A stretch of DNA of 40,818 bases, from positions 1 to 40,818 of the IMG/VR virus record IMGVR_UViG_3300010403_000016. One strand, given 5' to 3'. The position numbers were made by a program, and so were the translations under genes. The notes beneath the pieces were generated by a model. It made no database searches. It saw only the letters and a program-made list of their open reading frames with translations, and was not told the origin of the DNA. Shown here piece by piece: positions 2,581 to 38,658 of the stretch; position 1 is the first letter of the stretch, and each line of letters opens with the position of its first letter. The DNA comes from a virus.

Positions 2581-2598
2581 GTATTACAACATATATAT
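2581..2598. repeat. AT-rich repeat downstream of parA, left copy
   Basis: GTATTACAACATATATAT here matches GTATTACAATATATATAT at 3245-3262 at 17 of 18 positions, so near-identical elements flank parA. They are candidate RHH-binding iterons (centromere or operator). The segment up to about 2627 is also TA-rich and ends with another CATACAAC. Binding is inferred from the position next to the partition genes. Confidence 0.55.
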
Positions 2599-3233
2599 CA
2601 TTTATATATATATTCATACAACATTGAAAGTTCATGAACTGCTTTTTTATCAGTATTCTTTAATTCTATGACTCCAAGACCATCTGTAGCAGCATTCGAA
2701 AATGATTTTCTTTGTCCTAAAATAACAGGAATGCAAGTTAGATGGGGACAATCAGAAAGAATGTCCATTGCATCTTTATTATCATTTCCAATCGCATCGC
2801 CTCGATTAATTAAAGCATAACTTTTTAGATTTGGATTAATTTCTTTTGCTGAAGCAATGATTGTTTTGACCTGACCAAGCGTCCAAATATCTAAGGACCT
2901 TGGAAGAAATGGAACGACATATATATCTGATACGATAATTGATGATCTTTGAGATCTTGTATTTCTTCCACCAACATCAACAATTATGTCATCGTAACTT
3001 TTCATCATCTTTTGAATTTGAGAGCCTACGTTTTCACCTCCCAATTGGATAGTGACCCACGAGGTCTCAAATCCATTAGCCTCTCTTTGATCGCTCCAAC
3101 TTGTTGCGGATCTCTGTTCATCAGCATCAACAAGCAAAACCTTATAGCCTTGGGAAGCTCGCATAACGGTTAAATTTGTAGCGATTGTAGTTTTACCACT
3201 TCCTCCTTTAACTCCACCTATAACAATTATCAT
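2598..3233 (-). CDS. parA: ParA family partition ATPase (short type)
   Basis: This 211-aa protein has the deviant Walker A motif GGVKGGSGKTT (residues 6-16, with the signature Lys-9), a Walker A' Asp region (LLVDADEQRSATSW) and a Walker B-like strand (DDIIVDVGG). It lacks the N-terminal helix-turn-helix of type Ia ParA, so it is the short type Ib form used by plasmids and phage-plasmids. It would use ATP-dependent nucleoid binding to segregate the replicon together with the downstream RHH protein. The ribosome-binding site is GGAGG, 4 nt from the ATG. In a genome with no integrase, this is the main evidence for plasmid-like maintenance. Confidence 0.9.
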   Translation of the reverse strand: MIIVIGGVKGGSGKTTIATNLTVMRASQGYKVLLVDADEQRSATSWSDQREANGFETSWVTIQLGGENVGSQIQKMMKSYDDIIVDVGGRNTRSQRSSIIVSDIYVVPFLPRSLDIWTLGQVKTIIASAKEINPNLKSYALINRGDAIGNDNKDAMDILSDCPHLTCIPVILGQRKSFSNAATDGLGVIELKNTDKKAVHELSMLYEYIYK

Positions 3234-18049: not shown

Positions 18050-18715
18050 ATGACAGAAAATCAAGTTGTGAATCAAGTCCAAGAAAACAAACCATCCGAT
18101 AAAGAAATTAACTTTCGTAGAGTTGAAGAAAAAGCTAGACGAGACAAAGAAGAAATGCAAGCCAGAATTGATGAAATGGAAAGAAAATTACAAGAAGCAA
18201 GAAAGCCATATAAAGACGATGATGAAGATGATAATGATGATGAACCTTATGTTGGACATAAAAGATTAGAGAAAAAGTTATCTTCATTTGAAAGGAAAAT
18301 GGAAGAAAAGATTGATAGGAAAGCTGAAGAAAAAGCAAGGATGATGATTGATAGGAAAGATGAGGAAGATTGGATAAAACAAAATGCAGATTTCGGCGAT
18401 GTCTTGAAAGAAGAAAATCTTGTCAAATTGGTGAATAAAGCTCCAGGTCTTGCAGAATCCATTAAAAGAATGCCTGATGGGATTGAAAAACAGAAACTTG
18501 TCTACAATACCATTAAAACAATGGGTCTTGACAAACCAGAAACAAAACAACCTTCCATTCAAGAGAAAATAGATGCAAACCGCCGTAGTCCTTACTATCA
18601 GCCTTCTGGGGTGGGTGCTGCTCCTTATAATTCTGTAGGGGATTTCTCTGAATCAGGTCAAAAGAATGCTTATTCTAAGATGAAAGATTTGCAAAAAAGA
18701 TTGAGAATTTCATAA
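18050..18715 (+). CDS. Scaffolding protein
   Basis: This 221-aa protein is highly charged and helical: an N-terminal coiled coil (FRRVEEKARRDKEEMQARID), an acidic run (DDDEDDNDDEP) and a long Lys/Glu helix (RLEKKLSSFERKMEEKIDRK). It ends in a basic helix (SKMKDLQKRLRIS), as in P22-type scaffolds, whose C-terminal basic helix-turn-helix binds coat protein. It lies between portal and coat genes, as expected. AAGGAG is well placed. Assignment is by composition, size and position. Confidence 0.8.
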   Translation: MTENQVVNQVQENKPSDKEINFRRVEEKARRDKEEMQARIDEMERKLQEARKPYKDDDEDDNDDEPYVGHKRLEKKLSSFERKMEEKIDRKAEEKARMMIDRKDEEDWIKQNADFGDVLKEENLVKLVNKAPGLAESIKRMPDGIEKQKLVYNTIKTMGLDKPETKQPSIQEKIDANRRSPYYQPSGVGAAPYNSVGDFSESGQKNAYSKMKDLQKRLRIS

Positions 18716-19298: not shown

Positions 19299-19673
19299 TT
19301 ATTTTTCATTTTTTTTAATCAAATTTAAGAAAAAACTAGACTGTTTATCTCTATATTCTTGGAAATATTTAGGATTATATTCTTTATAACATTGCCAATT
19401 CCAATTAAAAAAAATATTTTTAGGTCCATTAATCGTTCCACAATGATATTTAATATGACAACTTGCGCATAGCCAAACAACCCAATCCGGTTTTGTATAA
19501 TCTTCATGATGCATTTGTAATCTTTGTGATTTATGAAATATTTTATCTTCACACCATCCAAATTGACATTTTTCTGGAACAACTAATATTCCTTTTCTTC
19601 GTAAATTGTTTGATTGACCTCGACAATTTCTTTTAATTCTTTCGAAGTCTTGCTGATAAGTTAATGAATTCAT
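19299..19673 (-). CDS. HNH-type zinc-binding endonuclease-like protein, 124 aa
   Basis: Segments CQFGWCEDKIF (first Cys pair), LQMHHEDYTKPDWVVWLCAS and CHIKYH form the 'HHEDY-x-K-P-x-x-V-x-W-L-C-x-x-C-H' pattern seen in phage HNH nucleases and related proteins. The His pair is the catalytic core; the Cys pairs hold a structural zinc. It is encoded on the opposite strand next to the intron-split coat gene, so it could be a free-standing homing endonuclease that targets the head region. This last point is inference. No DNA-binding NUMOD-like domain is obvious. Confidence 0.75.
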   Translation of the reverse strand: MNSLTYQQDFERIKRNCRGQSNNLRRKGILVVPEKCQFGWCEDKIFHKSQRLQMHHEDYTKPDWVVWLCASCHIKYHCGTINGPKNIFFNWNWQCYKEYNPKYFQEYRDKQSSFFLNLIKKNEK

Positions 19674-19885: not shown

Positions 19886-19895
19886 ATGTCGATTA
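19863..19895 (+). promoter_or_regulatory. Hairpin enclosing the coat-protein ribosome-binding site
   Basis: TAATCGACA (19863-19871) pairs perfectly with TGTCGATTA (19887-19895). The 15-nt loop contains the GAGG ribosome-binding site (19876-19879), and two bases of the ATG start codon (19886-19888) lie in the stem. Folding would expose the binding site in the loop but hold the start codon, a plausible translational switch. Coat proteins of other phages bind such operators; whether this one does is unknown. Confidence 0.6.
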
Positions 19896-20116
19896 CGACC
19901 ACTGGAAATTTGGGGCCGATGATTCTCCAGAGCTTAGCTCCTGCTATGCTTTACGTCCCCGTTCCAACCATGAATTATATTATTCCAGCAGACAAAGTAT
20001 CGATGCCAGCTAATGGCGGAACTACTTGTCGTTTTATGCGCCCACGTGCGCTACAGCCACCCACTGTTCAATTGGGAAATTCGGGGATTGATCCTCCAGC
20101 TCAAGTTCCACAGCGT
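19886..20116 (+). CDS. Major capsid protein, exon 1 (77 residues)
   Basis: MSITTTGNLGPMILQSLAPA and GNSGIDPPAQVPQ match the N-terminus of the phage coat family that begins 'M-S-V-T-T-T-G-x-L-P-P' and continues to '(N/D)-I-D-A-Q-M-x-F-Y-G-T'. In this genome the frame departs from the family after PPAQVPQR and runs into a stop at 20174-20176. The missing continuation is found at 20623. The U at 20116 is the predicted 5' splice site. Exon 1 is 77 codons, so it joins exon 2 in frame. The ATG lies in the regulatory hairpin. Confidence 0.85.
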
Positions 20117-20622
20117 AGAAAATATGTTGCGCTGTATAAATCTTCTCTGATTGACTTGGAACTCCTCGCTATTTAAGAATAGAAGGACAACAAGGGGCAA
20201 GCAATGAAAACATATGAAGTTAAACCAGAATTAGGAACAGAAATAATATTTCATTATGATGATAGTTTCCATATAGGTTATGTAGTTTCATTTAATGGCA
20301 GCGATAATCCAAGAAAATGGACATGGTTTTCAGAAATTAATAACTTTGAAATTATTGAAGAATTTATTGAAAATTGGTTTGAACTTCCTATATTGCAGCC
20401 TGAACGTAGCAAGCGAGAAGACTTAATGGAAATGACTGTATGTCCTGAAGCAAATGAATTAACAAAAATGCGTCTTGAACAAGACGTAGAATTTAATAAA
20501 CATTGTTCAGGAATTAATTCAGATCTATTAGGATGCGGTGCTCTGAACACTATGGAAACATAGTGAGGCCAGCTGAGAAGATTTGGCCCGCCTGAGAAAT
20601 CAGGTCAATAAGTAACAGATAG
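20117..20622 (+). ncRNA. Group I self-splicing intron in the capsid gene, 506 nt
   Basis: P1: exon bases ACAGCGT (20110-20116) pair with intron GCGCTGT (20129-20135), six Watson-Crick pairs and the diagnostic U-G at the splice site. P10: exon 2 GACATA (20623-20628) pairs with TATGTT (20123-20128), directly next to P1. The last intron base is G (20622). Candidate P7 is TGTTCAG (20504-20510) with CTGAACA (20543-20549). It is followed by CTATG-GAAA-CATAG (20550-20563), a P9-like GNRA hairpin, and by CCTGA-GAAA-TCAGG (20591-20604). A P3 helix can be drawn between the TCTGATT near 20144 and AATTCAGA near 20515. Splicing restores a continuous coat frame. P4-P6 and P8 were not fixed by hand. Confidence 0.85.
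20204..20563 (+). CDS. Intron-encoded 119-aa protein, not a known homing endonuclease
   Basis: The product starts MKTYEVKPELGTEIIFHYDD, includes GYVVSFNGSDNPRKWTWFSE and has a helical C-terminal half. I see no LAGLIDADG, GIY-YIG, HNH or His-Cys motif. AGGGG lies about 10 nt before the ATG. Its 3' end overlaps the candidate P7 and P9 elements, so its last residues (CGALNTMET) are constrained by RNA structure. It may be a maturase-like helper, a degenerate endonuclease or an unrelated gene that lodged in a peripheral loop. Translation is plausible, the function open. Confidence 0.6.
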   Translation: MKTYEVKPELGTEIIFHYDDSFHIGYVVSFNGSDNPRKWTWFSEINNFEIIEEFIENWFELPILQPERSKREDLMEMTVCPEANELTKMRLEQDVEFNKHCSGINSDLLGCGALNTMET

Positions 20623-21381
20623 GACATAATTGATGCACAAATGGCCTTTTTTGGGACAGGGTGTATCATAAATGAACAAGTTATTTTGCAAGACCAAGAG
20701 GGGGTCCTCGCTTGGGTGTCAGAGCGTTTAGCTGTGGCAATGCGTCAAGCAGAGGATTTGATCCTTCGCGATTACATCATTTCAGCCGCTTCCCAGATCA
20801 ATGCTGGCGGTGGATCTAATGGATTTAACCCAACTAATTTGGGATTGACTGACTTTAGTTTAGTTGCTACTACGCTCGATACTAACAATGCCTACAAGTT
20901 TATGTCAGGTATTGAGGGTATGGATCGTTTTGGAACAGGTCCTGTCCGCTCTGCATATTTTATGCTTAGCTCAACAGAACTCCAATCCGATTTTGATGCA
21001 TTAGGAAGCAATGGTTCAATTTCATTTTTGAGCCAATGGCAATATCCTACCAATGCGTCAGCGTTACCCTCTGAGTATGGTTCAGTCGCTAACATTCGTA
21101 TTTTGACAAGTTCTGAAGCACCAGTTGCTAGAAATGCTGCAATAAATAACGTTGGTACATTAAACGATGTTTATTACAACACCGTATTAGGTAAGCAAGC
21201 AATCACGCATATTAATCAGGATGGATATTCCATGAACCTGATTTATCGTGATCCTTATTATTCAGGGATGCTTGCTCAGAATGCTACCTTAGCAGTGAAG
21301 TTTGCTCAAGCTCAGGCGATCACTCAAGACACAGCTATTCGTAATTTAGTCTCTACACGCAACTCAAGTTTGGGGGTGTAA
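20623..21381 (+). CDS. Major capsid protein, exon 2 (252 residues)
   Basis: The spliced frame enters at GAC (20623) giving DIIDAQMAFFGTGCIINEQV, which restores the family motif 'I-D-A-Q-M-x-F-x-G-T'. It continues VLAWVSERLAVAMRQAEDLI, LRDYIISAASQINAGGGSNG, FMSGIEGMDRFGTGPVRSAY and a C-terminal HINQDGYSMNLIYRDPYYSG. Exon 2 has 252 sense codons, so the spliced protein has 329 residues, the size expected for this coat family. Without splicing, only a fragment starting at the internal ATG 20641 could be made. This is the shell-forming protein of the virion. Confidence 0.88.
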   Translation, partial: DIIDAQMAFFGTGCIINEQVILQDQEGVLAWVSERLAVAMRQAEDLILRDYIISAASQINAGGGSNGFNPTNLGLTDFSLVATTLDTNNAYKFMSGIEGMDRFGTGPVRSAYFMLSSTELQSDFDALGSNGSISFLSQWQYPTNASALPSEYGSVANIRILTSSEAPVARNAAINNVGTLNDVYYNTVLGKQAITHINQDGYSMNLIYRDPYYSGMLAQNATLAVKFAQAQAITQDTAIRNLVSTRNSSLGV

Positions 21382-33553: not shown

Positions 33554-35860
33554 ATGCCTCTCGCATACGGAATCGGTGGATTATTAAGCGTACCAGGAAG
33601 CCCAATTAGTGGAAATGGTCCTCCACCAGCTTCATTTAAACCACAGCTAGGTCAGCAATTTTATGATAATTCTACAACTCCTCCAACTGAATATGTTTTC
33701 AATGGTCAGACTTGGACGACAGCCGGAGCTAATCCTGCAACAACGACAACATTCGGAACCGTAGAATTAGCGACATTATCTCAATTACAGAATGGAAATG
33801 CTCCTGCGGGTGCAATTGTTCCATTATCTAATGATGTGGCAACAGTAATCGCAGGTGTAGTTGCTGGAGCTGTTCCTCCTGCTAATACTACACAAGCCGG
33901 TATTGTGTTTCTTGAAACTGATGCTAATGCTGTTTTGGGAACAGCTCCTAATCCAAATACAGCTTTACAACCTAGCAACTTAGCTGCTGTTTTTGCTGCG
34001 CCACCTGCTGGAGGATTTGGTAGCACGACTCCAAGACCAGTTGCTGCAACAACTATTACTGCATCTTCAACTTTAGGCGTTACCGGATTGAGTACTCTTG
34101 GTGCATTAACACAAGTTGGTACTGCTAGTTTAAATGCATCCGGAGCCGGTGTAACAACTATAAATACTGGTGGAACAGGAGCTTTATTACTCGGTAATGC
34201 AACTGGTAACACTGCTTTGACTGGAGCATTAACAATTAGTACTACTTTAGGGGTTACAGGTGCAACAACACTTGCAGCATTAACTCAAGTAGGAACAGCA
34301 AATATTAATGCATCAGGGGCAGGTGTAACTACTATTGGTACTGGTGGAACAGGAGCAGTTCTAATTGGAAATGCAACAGGAAATATAGCAGCCACAGGAA
34401 CATTTGCTTTAACTGGAGCAGCAACAGTAAGTTTAACTCTTGGTGTCACAGGATTAACTACTTTATCAACCCTTGCTATTACTTCAACATCTACTTTCAC
34501 AGGATTAGCCACATTTAACGGTGGTGCAACTATAGCAAGCGGTACTCTCACAGTAGCTGGATTAACAGTTGTAGGAACAACTTTAATCAATAATTCAGGC
34601 GGTGCAGCTACAACCATCGGAGGTGCTAGTGCTGGCGCTATTGGAATAGTTGTGGGATCGGCAGGTAACTTTACCTTATCTACAGCGACAGCCGGAGCCA
34701 CAATGGCTATCGGTTCTGCAACACAGACAGGTCTTATCACTTTAGGGGCTTCAACAGCTGGACAAACAGTAAGTATATCTAGTGCAGCAACAATTGCAGG
34801 CGCTAACGTTGTTAACGTATTAGCCGGTGCAACTCCTGGAGCTAGTCAAACATTTAACTTGATGACAGGTGTTGGAACTGCCGGAACTTATGCAGTAAAT
34901 GTTTTAACTGGAAATTCTACTGGAACGACTCAGACTGTTTCAATTGGAACTGGTTCTGCACGAACAGATATTACGTTGGGAGGTACCGGTGCCAACGTTA
35001 TAAAAATTAACGATACTACAACCACAGGTACTGTTTCTATCGGTGCTTTAATGACTTCCGGCACAATCACACTTGGTGGTGCTGCGATGACTGGCGCTTC
35101 TGCGATCATTATCGGAAATAGTACTGCCGCCGGCGGTATTACCCTTCAAATCGGTAATGCTATTAATACAGGCGCACAAGTAATTAACATCGCAAATGCT
35201 GCATCTGGAGCTGCTTCAACTGTTAGCATCCTTTCCGGAAATGCCTCCGCAGGAGTCCAGACATTAAATCTAGGAGCAGGAACTGGTGGTAAAACCATCC
35301 ATATTGGAGATAGTGCAACAGGTGCAAATACTCTTTTAATTGCAGGTGATGCTTCTTCTACTACAATTCTTGGTATTGTAAACATTGCTACATCAGGTGC
35401 TAGAACGGTTACAATTGGAACTGGAGGAACAGGAGCAGTATTAATAGGTAATGCTACTGGAAATACTGCGGTTACTGGTTCATTAACAGCTAGCACTTCA
35501 TTGACTGCTACTGCAGGAGCAATCACCGCAACAAATGGTAATTTAGTTCTTGGAACAGCTGGAAATAAAATAGTGAGTTCTTCAGTTGCTTCAACTACTA
35601 CAGCCGGTGCGAACTCATTTGGTACAGTAACTCTAGTAGGTGGAACAGCTACAGTTTCAACAACTGCAATTACATCAAGTTCTATTGTGTTCTTAACAAG
35701 ACAAACTGTAGGAGCAACAGGAGCAAACCCAATGGGTATGTTAACGCGCGGAACAATCGTTAATGGAACATCATTTGTAATTAATTCTTGGTTGACAGCA
35801 GATGCAACTACACTTTGTGCAACTGATGTTTCAAACGTTGGTTGGATGATTGTAAATTAA
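33554..35860 (+). CDS. Large repetitive fibre/adhesin protein, 768 aa
   Basis: After a short N-terminal domain (MPLAYGIGGLLSVPGSPISG; residues about 30-60 QFYDNSTTPPTEYVFNGQTW), the protein is almost entirely Gly/Ala/Thr/Ser repeats. A unit built on ALTQVGTASLNASGAGVTT and TGGTGALLLGNATGN occurs at about residues 177-236 and 236-302 and partly again at about 615-656. The strand-turn composition suggests a beta-helix or beta-prism fibre. The N-terminal part may attach to the tail. Unique among the genome's proteins in length of repetition. The AGGAG ribosome-binding site is strong. Confidence 0.75.
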   Translation: MPLAYGIGGLLSVPGSPISGNGPPPASFKPQLGQQFYDNSTTPPTEYVFNGQTWTTAGANPATTTTFGTVELATLSQLQNGNAPAGAIVPLSNDVATVIAGVVAGAVPPANTTQAGIVFLETDANAVLGTAPNPNTALQPSNLAAVFAAPPAGGFGSTTPRPVAATTITASSTLGVTGLSTLGALTQVGTASLNASGAGVTTINTGGTGALLLGNATGNTALTGALTISTTLGVTGATTLAALTQVGTANINASGAGVTTIGTGGTGAVLIGNATGNIAATGTFALTGAATVSLTLGVTGLTTLSTLAITSTSTFTGLATFNGGATIASGTLTVAGLTVVGTTLINNSGGAATTIGGASAGAIGIVVGSAGNFTLSTATAGATMAIGSATQTGLITLGASTAGQTVSISSAATIAGANVVNVLAGATPGASQTFNLMTGVGTAGTYAVNVLTGNSTGTTQTVSIGTGSARTDITLGGTGANVIKINDTTTTGTVSIGALMTSGTITLGGAAMTGASAIIIGNSTAAGGITLQIGNAINTGAQVINIANAASGAASTVSILSGNASAGVQTLNLGAGTGGKTIHIGDSATGANTLLIAGDASSTTILGIVNIATSGARTVTIGTGGTGAVLIGNATGNTAVTGSLTASTSLTATAGAITATNGNLVLGTAGNKIVSSSVASTTTAGANSFGTVTLVGGTATVSTTAITSSSIVFLTRQTVGATGANPMGMLTRGTIVNGTSFVINSWLTADATTLCATDVSNVGWMIVN

Positions 35861-37953: not shown

Positions 37954-38658
37954 ATGTGTAAAGACGATATGAAATATGATCATTATGATCATAAAAAATG
38001 TTGTGATTGCAAAGAAGGCCCACAAGGCGTTCCAGGTTTACAAGGCCCGCAAGGGATTCAAGGGGTTCCAGGACCTCAAGGTAATATGGGTTTAACAGGA
38101 CTCCAAGGTCCTCAAGGTCTACAAGGACCTGCAGGAAAAGACTGCGAACCACGTCCTCCATCTGAAAAATGTTGCTGTGATAGATGGGCAAATTTATTTG
38201 CTTCTCCTCCACAAACTATTGCTGCATTTGGAACAGGAGCTGATGCTGTATTGTTCCAAGGTCAAAATGCTGTTACTGCAGTTGATTTTGATTTGTCCAT
38301 GATGGGAGTTGATGGTTCAGTTAAATTTCTTAAATCAGGTGTTTACGTAATTAACTGGGGTGCTGAAGCTAGAGTTCAACCTCCAATTCCTCAACCTACA
38401 CCTTCATTTTCTTTCGGTCTGTGGGTTAATAATGTTGTAGTTCCAGGAAGCGTAATATCCGGTTATACACAAGCACCTAACGATGACACATTGCATATTG
38501 ACAACGAAGTGATTATTTCTGTGCAAGCTGGTGATGTTTTGAAACTCAGAAATGCATCTGCATTTATTTTGGAAATGGCACCGAATACAATCGGTATTCA
38601 GTTTCCTGTTGTTGTTGCATCTTTGAATATTCATTGCCTTAAAGATCTTTCAGTTTAA
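37954..38658 (+). CDS. Collagen-like protein with a C1q/TNF-like head, 234 aa
   Basis: Residues about 22-61 are 13 G-x-y triplets (start GPQGVPGLQGPQGIQGVPGP), flanked by Cys-rich segments (KKCCDCKEG and EKCCCDR) that may cross-link trimers. The C-terminal part (FGTGADAVLFQGQNAVTAVD, VKFLKSGVYVINWGAEARVQ, FSFGLWVNNVVVPGSVISGY, LRNASAFILEMAPNTIGIQF) has the strand layout of a C1q/BclA-like trimeric beta-sandwich. It is probably a surface fibre. AAGGAGG is an excellent ribosome-binding site. A perfect hairpin follows the stop. Confidence 0.8.
   Translation: MCKDDMKYDHYDHKKCCDCKEGPQGVPGLQGPQGIQGVPGPQGNMGLTGLQGPQGLQGPAGKDCEPRPPSEKCCCDRWANLFASPPQTIAAFGTGADAVLFQGQNAVTAVDFDLSMMGVDGSVKFLKSGVYVINWGAEARVQPPIPQPTPSFSFGLWVNNVVVPGSVISGYTQAPNDDTLHIDNEVIISVQAGDVLKLRNASAFILEMAPNTIGIQFPVVVASLNIHCLKDLSV

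Follow-up and report, generated by a model that had tools for sequence, protein, structure and literature searches.

The window, a stretch of 40,818 nucleotides (positions 1 to 40,818 of IMG/VR virus record IMGVR_UViG_3300010403_000016), belongs to a podovirus-like phage whose portal protein matches phrog_156. Its major capsid (coat) gene is interrupted by an insertion, and a free-standing endonuclease-like gene lies between this gene and the gene at 18050-18715. The features of the locus, together with the predicted helices of the insertion, are collected in Table 1. A tblastn search with the window capsid found no match in cultured phages. Elsewhere in the window, a structural-region protein (37954-38658) carries collagen-like Gly-X-Y repeats, and a ParA-like partition protein on the minus strand (2598-3233; phrog_164, E 5e-35) hints that the phage may have a temperate or plasmid-like state.

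Table 1. Features of the interrupted capsid locus, with window coordinates and the basis of each assignment
Feature	Position	Strand	Basis or remark
Free-standing endonuclease-like gene beside the capsid gene	19299-19673	-	phrog_2340 endonuclease, E 5e-11; HNH-like motifs by eye
Capsid exon 1	19886-20116	+	77 codons; tblastn and comparison with intronless coats
Predicted group I intron, 506 nt	20117-20622	+	Exon continuity in relatives; covariance models R1 and R2; P1/P10
Capsid exon 2	20623-21381	+	252 codons plus stop
P1	20110-20135	+	Internal guide 20129-20135 paired to exon bases 20110-20116; 5' splice-site pair U20116.G20129
P10 partner of exon 2 bases 20623-20628	20123-20128	+	Sequence
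P3, 5' strand TCTTCTC	20141-20147	+	Pairs with GAGAAGA 20415-20421; P3 covaries in the family
P4, 5' strand	20155-20158	+	Pairs with 20191-20194
P5 and P5a	20163-20187	+	20163-20165 with 20185-20187; P5a 20169-20182, its loop holding the coat-frame stop TAA 20174-20176
ACAAGGGGCAAG, P4' and P6 5' strand	20190-20201	+	Includes a Shine-Dalgarno-like AAGGGG (20192-20197), 6 nt upstream of the ORF ATG
P6 stem	20195-20401	+	20195-20198 pairs with 20398-20401, enclosing a coding insertion
P7, 5' strand ACGUAGCA, bulged	20404-20411	+	Pairs with UGCUCU 20539-20544; by comparison with the family P7
P8	20422-20532	+	20422-20427 with 20527-20532; loop with a coding insertion of about 100 nt
J8/7, P7', P9, P9.1 (20567-20588), P9.2 and 3' segment	20532-20618	+	R2, 85.2 bits; P9/P9.1 covariation
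Putative intron ORF, 119 aa	20204-20563	+	Read through P6, P7, P3', P8, P7' and P9

As originally predicted from the sequence, the coat reading frame breaks after ...PPAQVPQR and restarts at 20623 with DIIDAQM. The 506 nt of the insertion are not a multiple of 3 and the two exons lie in different frames, so that the capsid protein can be restored only if the insertion is removed from the RNA. When compared with its relatives, the spliced coat of 329 aa found a one-piece match, with no gap, in 72 of 80 IMG/VR coat loci, and the intronless relatives read QVPQRDIIDAQM unbroken over the junction. Eight of the 80 capsid relatives have insertions of roughly 216-250 nt elsewhere in the same gene. Coding genes can also be broken by inteins, transposons and assembly errors. 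However, an intein is incompatible with the shift of frame and with the stops within the 506 nt and is ruled out by them, and the same RNA architecture recurs in GenBank records as well as in numerous independent contigs, which argues against a transposon or an assembly error; the chance that any of the three accounts for the insertion is negligible.

A motif common to the insertions of the relatives retrieved over 120 stretches, and a second motif, taken from P7/P3', found 102 stretches. We aligned the core (P3-P4-P5-P6-P7-P8, with P7 as a pseudoknot) of 52 compact relatives and found that 97.4% of the pair cells were standard pairs, compared with 81.6% with shuffled partners and about 40-47% when the partners were slid, and that both sides had changed in 259 cells versus 71 with shuffled partners. 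This covariation supports a P3/P7 pseudoknot with P4-P6 and P3-P8 domains, which the helices of the window match by sequence. A P7 with a bulged nucleotide and a G-C guanosine-site pair is present, as is J8/7, and the P7 pairs are kept in all 52 relatives. Inspection of the alignment by eye (A1, columns 25, 59 and 149) also revealed that the identity of a J8/7 base follows that of a P4 pair, G accompanying U-A and A accompanying C-G, an apparent co-change that resembles a base triple.

A covariance model made from the core alignment (R1) scored the compact relatives at 69-121 bits and the window intron, which was not in the model, at 27.2 bits, matching its 5' half only because the window P6 is enlarged by 196 nt. 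For the 3' part, a P7'-P9-P9.1 model built without the window (R2) matched with an E value of 4.6e-20, and the P9/P9.1 helices covary (98.6% standard pairs versus 72.0% in the control). The check suggested with the original prediction, a search with Rfam covariance models, had a split outcome in that the Rfam group I model RF00028 gave no match in the window or its relatives at gathering or relaxed thresholds, whereas these purpose-built models were positive. In a T4 control region (136500-147500), RF00028 missed the td intron even at E 10 and scored the nrdB intron at 35.7 bits, below its threshold of 50. RF00028 is therefore a poor arbiter and, given the T4 outcome, Rfam-negative phage introns should not be dismissed.

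The splice-site pairings point the same way. An automated P1 search, which required at least five Watson-Crick pairs besides the U.G pair, succeeded in 151 of 202 family introns but in only 9 of 190 shuffled ones, an excess that excludes chance, and in the window it returned the same P1 that had been predicted, with six Watson-Crick pairs (20110-20115 with 20130-20135) plus U20116.G20129. The U that ends exon 1 (20116) and the G that ends the intron (20622) are both in the sequence, P10 is there with five Watson-Crick pairs and one G.U, and the two GAAA hairpins noticed near the 3' end turned out to be P9 (20548-20565) and P9.2 (20591-20604). The window P7 supported by comparison (20404-20411 with 20539-20544) consists of 5-6 pairs with bulges, this version having a second bulge at U20407; the 7-bp candidate P7 of the original prediction had been listed with no positions. 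Comparison of the intron DNA with phages gave only chance-level matches. Core covariation, R1, R2 and P1 together lend strong comparative support to the prediction that a group I intron interrupts the major capsid gene; positions 20117-20622 are almost certainly such an intron, and we infer that it is spliced.

The family to which it belongs is large. We collected 205 introns, 120 of which are flanked by capsid homologues; these introns were collected by intron motifs and not by capsid sequence, the second motif characterizes one particular P7 subtype, so that the capsid share is not an unbiased estimate, and the introns are mutually related, such that the counts do not represent independent events. 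Splice sites fixed by P1 placed 66 introns on 34 positions, from codon 22 to codon 314 of the capsid gene, and we refer to these as about 30 sites, as some of the 34 positions lie approximately one codon apart and may be alignment noise. The maximum is five introns in one capsid gene (L232), followed by four in each of two others (L138 and L251). In a further locus (L253, 2883-2921), a capsid exon of about 39 nt is located between two insertions. Of the 27 whole records of the phage group, 18 had model matches and 9 had none, and when a whole record had several intron matches, they were always within about 3 kb.

Given the negative Rfam result, it might be supposed that these introns splice no more and that the capsid is assembled from two separate polypeptides or its gene is no longer functional. 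Such a loss of splicing appears very improbable, as the core pairs and a P1 that matches the exon are kept across many sites and the flanking exons are intact, including the one of about 39 nt.

The original prediction was right about the intron but missed both the introns at other sites in the relatives and the ORF within the window intron. An insert of more than 40 nt enlarges P6 in 91 introns. In 84 of them, an ATG follows GGGGCAAG at a distance of no more than 12 nt, nearly always 0-5 nt, and these 84 ATGs all open one frame into P7, in which the P7 core encodes PERSKRED or PERLSE; another frame was opened in 1 of the 91 and the third in none. The P6 inserts are open in the ORF frame in 87 of the 91 introns, compared with 1.5 expected by shuffling, and P8 inserts of over 50 nt are open in frame in 35 of 41, compared with 2.3 expected (6 and 1 in the other frames). 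After the P8 insert, the reading frame of P7' is not fixed across introns. Furthermore, the codon positions of the ORFs differ in composition (G at 26.5/16.9/12.1% in the family; GC at 38/26/15% in the P6 part of the window ORF), and among seven ORF pairs dN/dS was about 0.16-0.56 in five and >1 in one, with one pair not computable.

The sequence ACAAGGGGCAAG precedes the ATG in 85 of 85 ORF-bearing introns but is found in only 44 of 113 compact introns, and the difference holds within both of the P7 subtypes that carry ORFs (p 1.6e-10 and 4e-5). The same nucleotides form P4' and half of P6 and contain the Shine-Dalgarno-like AAGGGG, ending 4-9 nt before the ATG, with 7 nt the commonest distance. 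Comparison across the family shows that in the ORF-bearing class, the window intron included, a predicted coding ORF starts after the P4'/P6 strand and passes in one frame through the catalytic core.

The ORFs are short and mostly unrelated, falling into 66 clusters, most of them single. Pfam recognized DUF551 in 6 of 54 ORFs (best 1.7e-8), phrog_924 was matched by seven, several ORFs have CxxC pairs, and there are zinc-ribbon-like matches among them. None of the homing endonuclease families in Pfam (LAGLIDADG, GIY-YIG, HNH and others) was found in the 54 ORFs or in the window ORF. The window ORF matched nothing in Pfam or PHROGs, its P6-encoded part had no homologue in IMG/VR, and a single-sequence AlphaFold prediction, with a pLDDT of 41, was uninformative. 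One ORF cluster (L204, L245, L263, L269 and L273) occurs at clearly different insertion sites and, conversely, sites 104, 144 and 181 each hold different ORFs. The ORF family is thus not tied to the insertion site and behaves as exchangeable cargo rather than as a site-specific homing enzyme.

As group I ORFs often overlap the intron core (PMC3073962), it could be argued that this is an ordinary mobile group I intron in which the ORF is an unrecognized or degraded homing endonuclease and the core frame reflects passive "core creep." The I-TevI ORF overlaps the core by 20 nt, and a LAGLIDADG ORF of Synechococcus lividus does so by 81 nt, through P6/P7/P3/P8/P9 (PMC3073962); an endonuclease-like gene, moreover, adjoins the window capsid gene. 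However, what the 54 ORFs match is DUF551 and zinc-ribbon-like domains instead of a homing endonuclease family, they are short and largely unrelated to one another, their families are unlinked to insertion site, and creep alone fails to predict either the fixed ACAAGGGGCAAG or the spacing between stop and start described below. We consider this explanation rather unlikely, and some of the ORFs may conceivably have a homing function with an unrecognized fold. The 19299-19673 gene is, from its sequence, a possible homing partner of the intron; we rejected it as an obligatory partner because its homologues are few and are located elsewhere in other loci. The preferred reading is that the small protein is probably an exchangeable accessory cassette and not a homing endonuclease.

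The upstream exon was mapped for 52 ORF-bearing capsid introns, and in these the capsid frame of the unspliced RNA runs into a stop, which is TAA in 43 cases. In 47 of the 52, the distance from this stop to the ORF ATG is 18-31 nt. In the window, the distance from the TAA in the P5a loop to the ATG at 20204 is 27 nt. P5 has a median length of 30 nt in ORF-bearing introns versus 18 nt in compact ones, and in the latter the position of the coat-frame stop is scattered. The spacing suggests that the ORF is translated by termination-reinitiation (translational coupling) on unspliced RNA; the stop in P5 could also merely keep ribosomes out of P6-P9.

The following sequence of events would account for this arrangement. 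RNA that has folded before the arrival of a ribosome would splice and so provide the mRNA for the capsid protein. Where splicing has not yet taken place, a ribosome coming from the capsid exon would cross P1-P5 and halt at the TAA in the P5 loop, where the adjacent AAGGGG would permit initiation of the ORF some 20-30 nt downstream of the TAA. Translation of the ORF would then unfold P6, P7, P3' and P8, such that this molecule would yield the small protein instead of being spliced. As the ORF crosses the core, its translation is expected to compete against splicing, an effect already known from I-TevI (PMC3073962).

We regard it as reasonably probable, from comparative sequence evidence, that the window contains a group I capsid intron of this family with a core-threaded ORF, a choice between splicing and translation, the steps of which are inferred, and an accessory cassette. 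More tentatively, at a little under an even chance, the intron may act as a translational switch as well as a cassette, its core doubling as ribosome-binding site and coding sequence, such that unspliced capsid mRNA would give the small protein by termination-reinitiation and spliced mRNA the capsid, with several such introns stacked in one late gene. In-frame stops soon after the 5' splice site are common in group I introns (PMC3073962), and the spacing alone falls short of proving reinitiation. The spacing would also fit a group I intron that expresses its cargo ORF but has no switch, the P5 stop only shielding the core and the ORF having a translation route of its own, such as a late transcript of the intron or the excised intron itself. 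A stop near the ORF start is, however, a feature mainly of the ORF-bearing introns and not of the compact ones, and we think an arrangement with no switch distinctly unlikely.

By sequence, the window intron family is one of phage introns with a T4-like 3' core. It resembles the T4 td and nrdB introns in having a AACGACUA / AUAGUCU P7 with a P9 hairpin directly after it, and differs from both in that it lacks P7.1/P7.2 between P7 and P3' (by eye) and has a conserved CUGAUUGACUUGGAA; R1 found no match in the T4 nrdB/td region. As in td, with I-TevI in P6, the ORF is inserted in P6 and extends into the core, and interference of ORF translation with td splicing is reported in PMC3073962 with reference to Gibb and Edgell (2010). 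Unlike in td, however, the ORFs of this family encode no recognizable homing endonuclease and run through P7-P3'-P8, and the core strand is Shine-Dalgarno-like.

The original prediction called an intron in the capsid gene unusual, which holds only in part, as the Cluster J mycobacteriophage LittleE also has an intron in its major capsid gene that is of group I, or likely so, and the splicing of which was proven by RT-PCR and protein sequencing (PMC3706429). The LittleE gene has one intron, whose LAGLIDADG-like ORF is antisense (PMC3706429), whereas the family described here occupies about 30 sites and has small ORFs on the sense strand. A capsid gene intron in the lactococcal phage Tuc2009 is mentioned in the same paper (PMC3706429). 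The genomes of Jug and crAss-like phages each contain numerous group I introns of short length (about 206 nt), with metatranscriptome support for the splicing of 37 of 76 (PMC12363816); compared by description, those introns are in terL, nrdD and DNA polymerase genes, whereas ours are clustered and mostly in the capsid gene. Like our family, the group I introns of Bastillevirinae phages are incompletely captured by existing models, but their loop ORFs mostly encode homing endonucleases, and the word "capsid" is absent from the text of that paper (PMC11878797). In the open-access literature searched, we encountered neither a capsid gene described as having this many intron sites nor small nonnuclease ORFs in one fixed core frame with a core strand as ribosome-binding site. 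Phage capsid introns (PMC3706429), dense short introns (PMC12363816) and core-overlapping ORFs (PMC3073962) are each already known separately; the combination looks new.

The family constitutes a large set of phage introns invisible to Rfam, mostly in a gene whose expression is expected to rank with the highest; a single capsid gene of about 330 codons can contain as many as five of them. The architecture of the ORFs makes it possible to test how coding sequence and ribozyme share nucleotides and whether ribosomes choose between splicing and translation. The capsid genes of such phages, and the small proteins enclosed in them, are likely to be misannotated.

The 5' core motif is also matched by 119 bacterial and archaeal stretches (L296 onward), many of which may be chance matches. 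Two GenBank records contain introns of the family. The isolate of Roseobacter phage CRP-118 (L415; OR420741.1, about 35070-35189) has an unannotated one (111.4 bits), located between two ribonucleotide reductase CDS fragments. In a spring metagenome record (MW202674.1; L416, 2497-2620), such an intron splits a P22-like coat gene (117.6 bits); the coat is annotated there as two CDS, and the intron core bears the annotation of a "hypothetical protein" of 120 nt.
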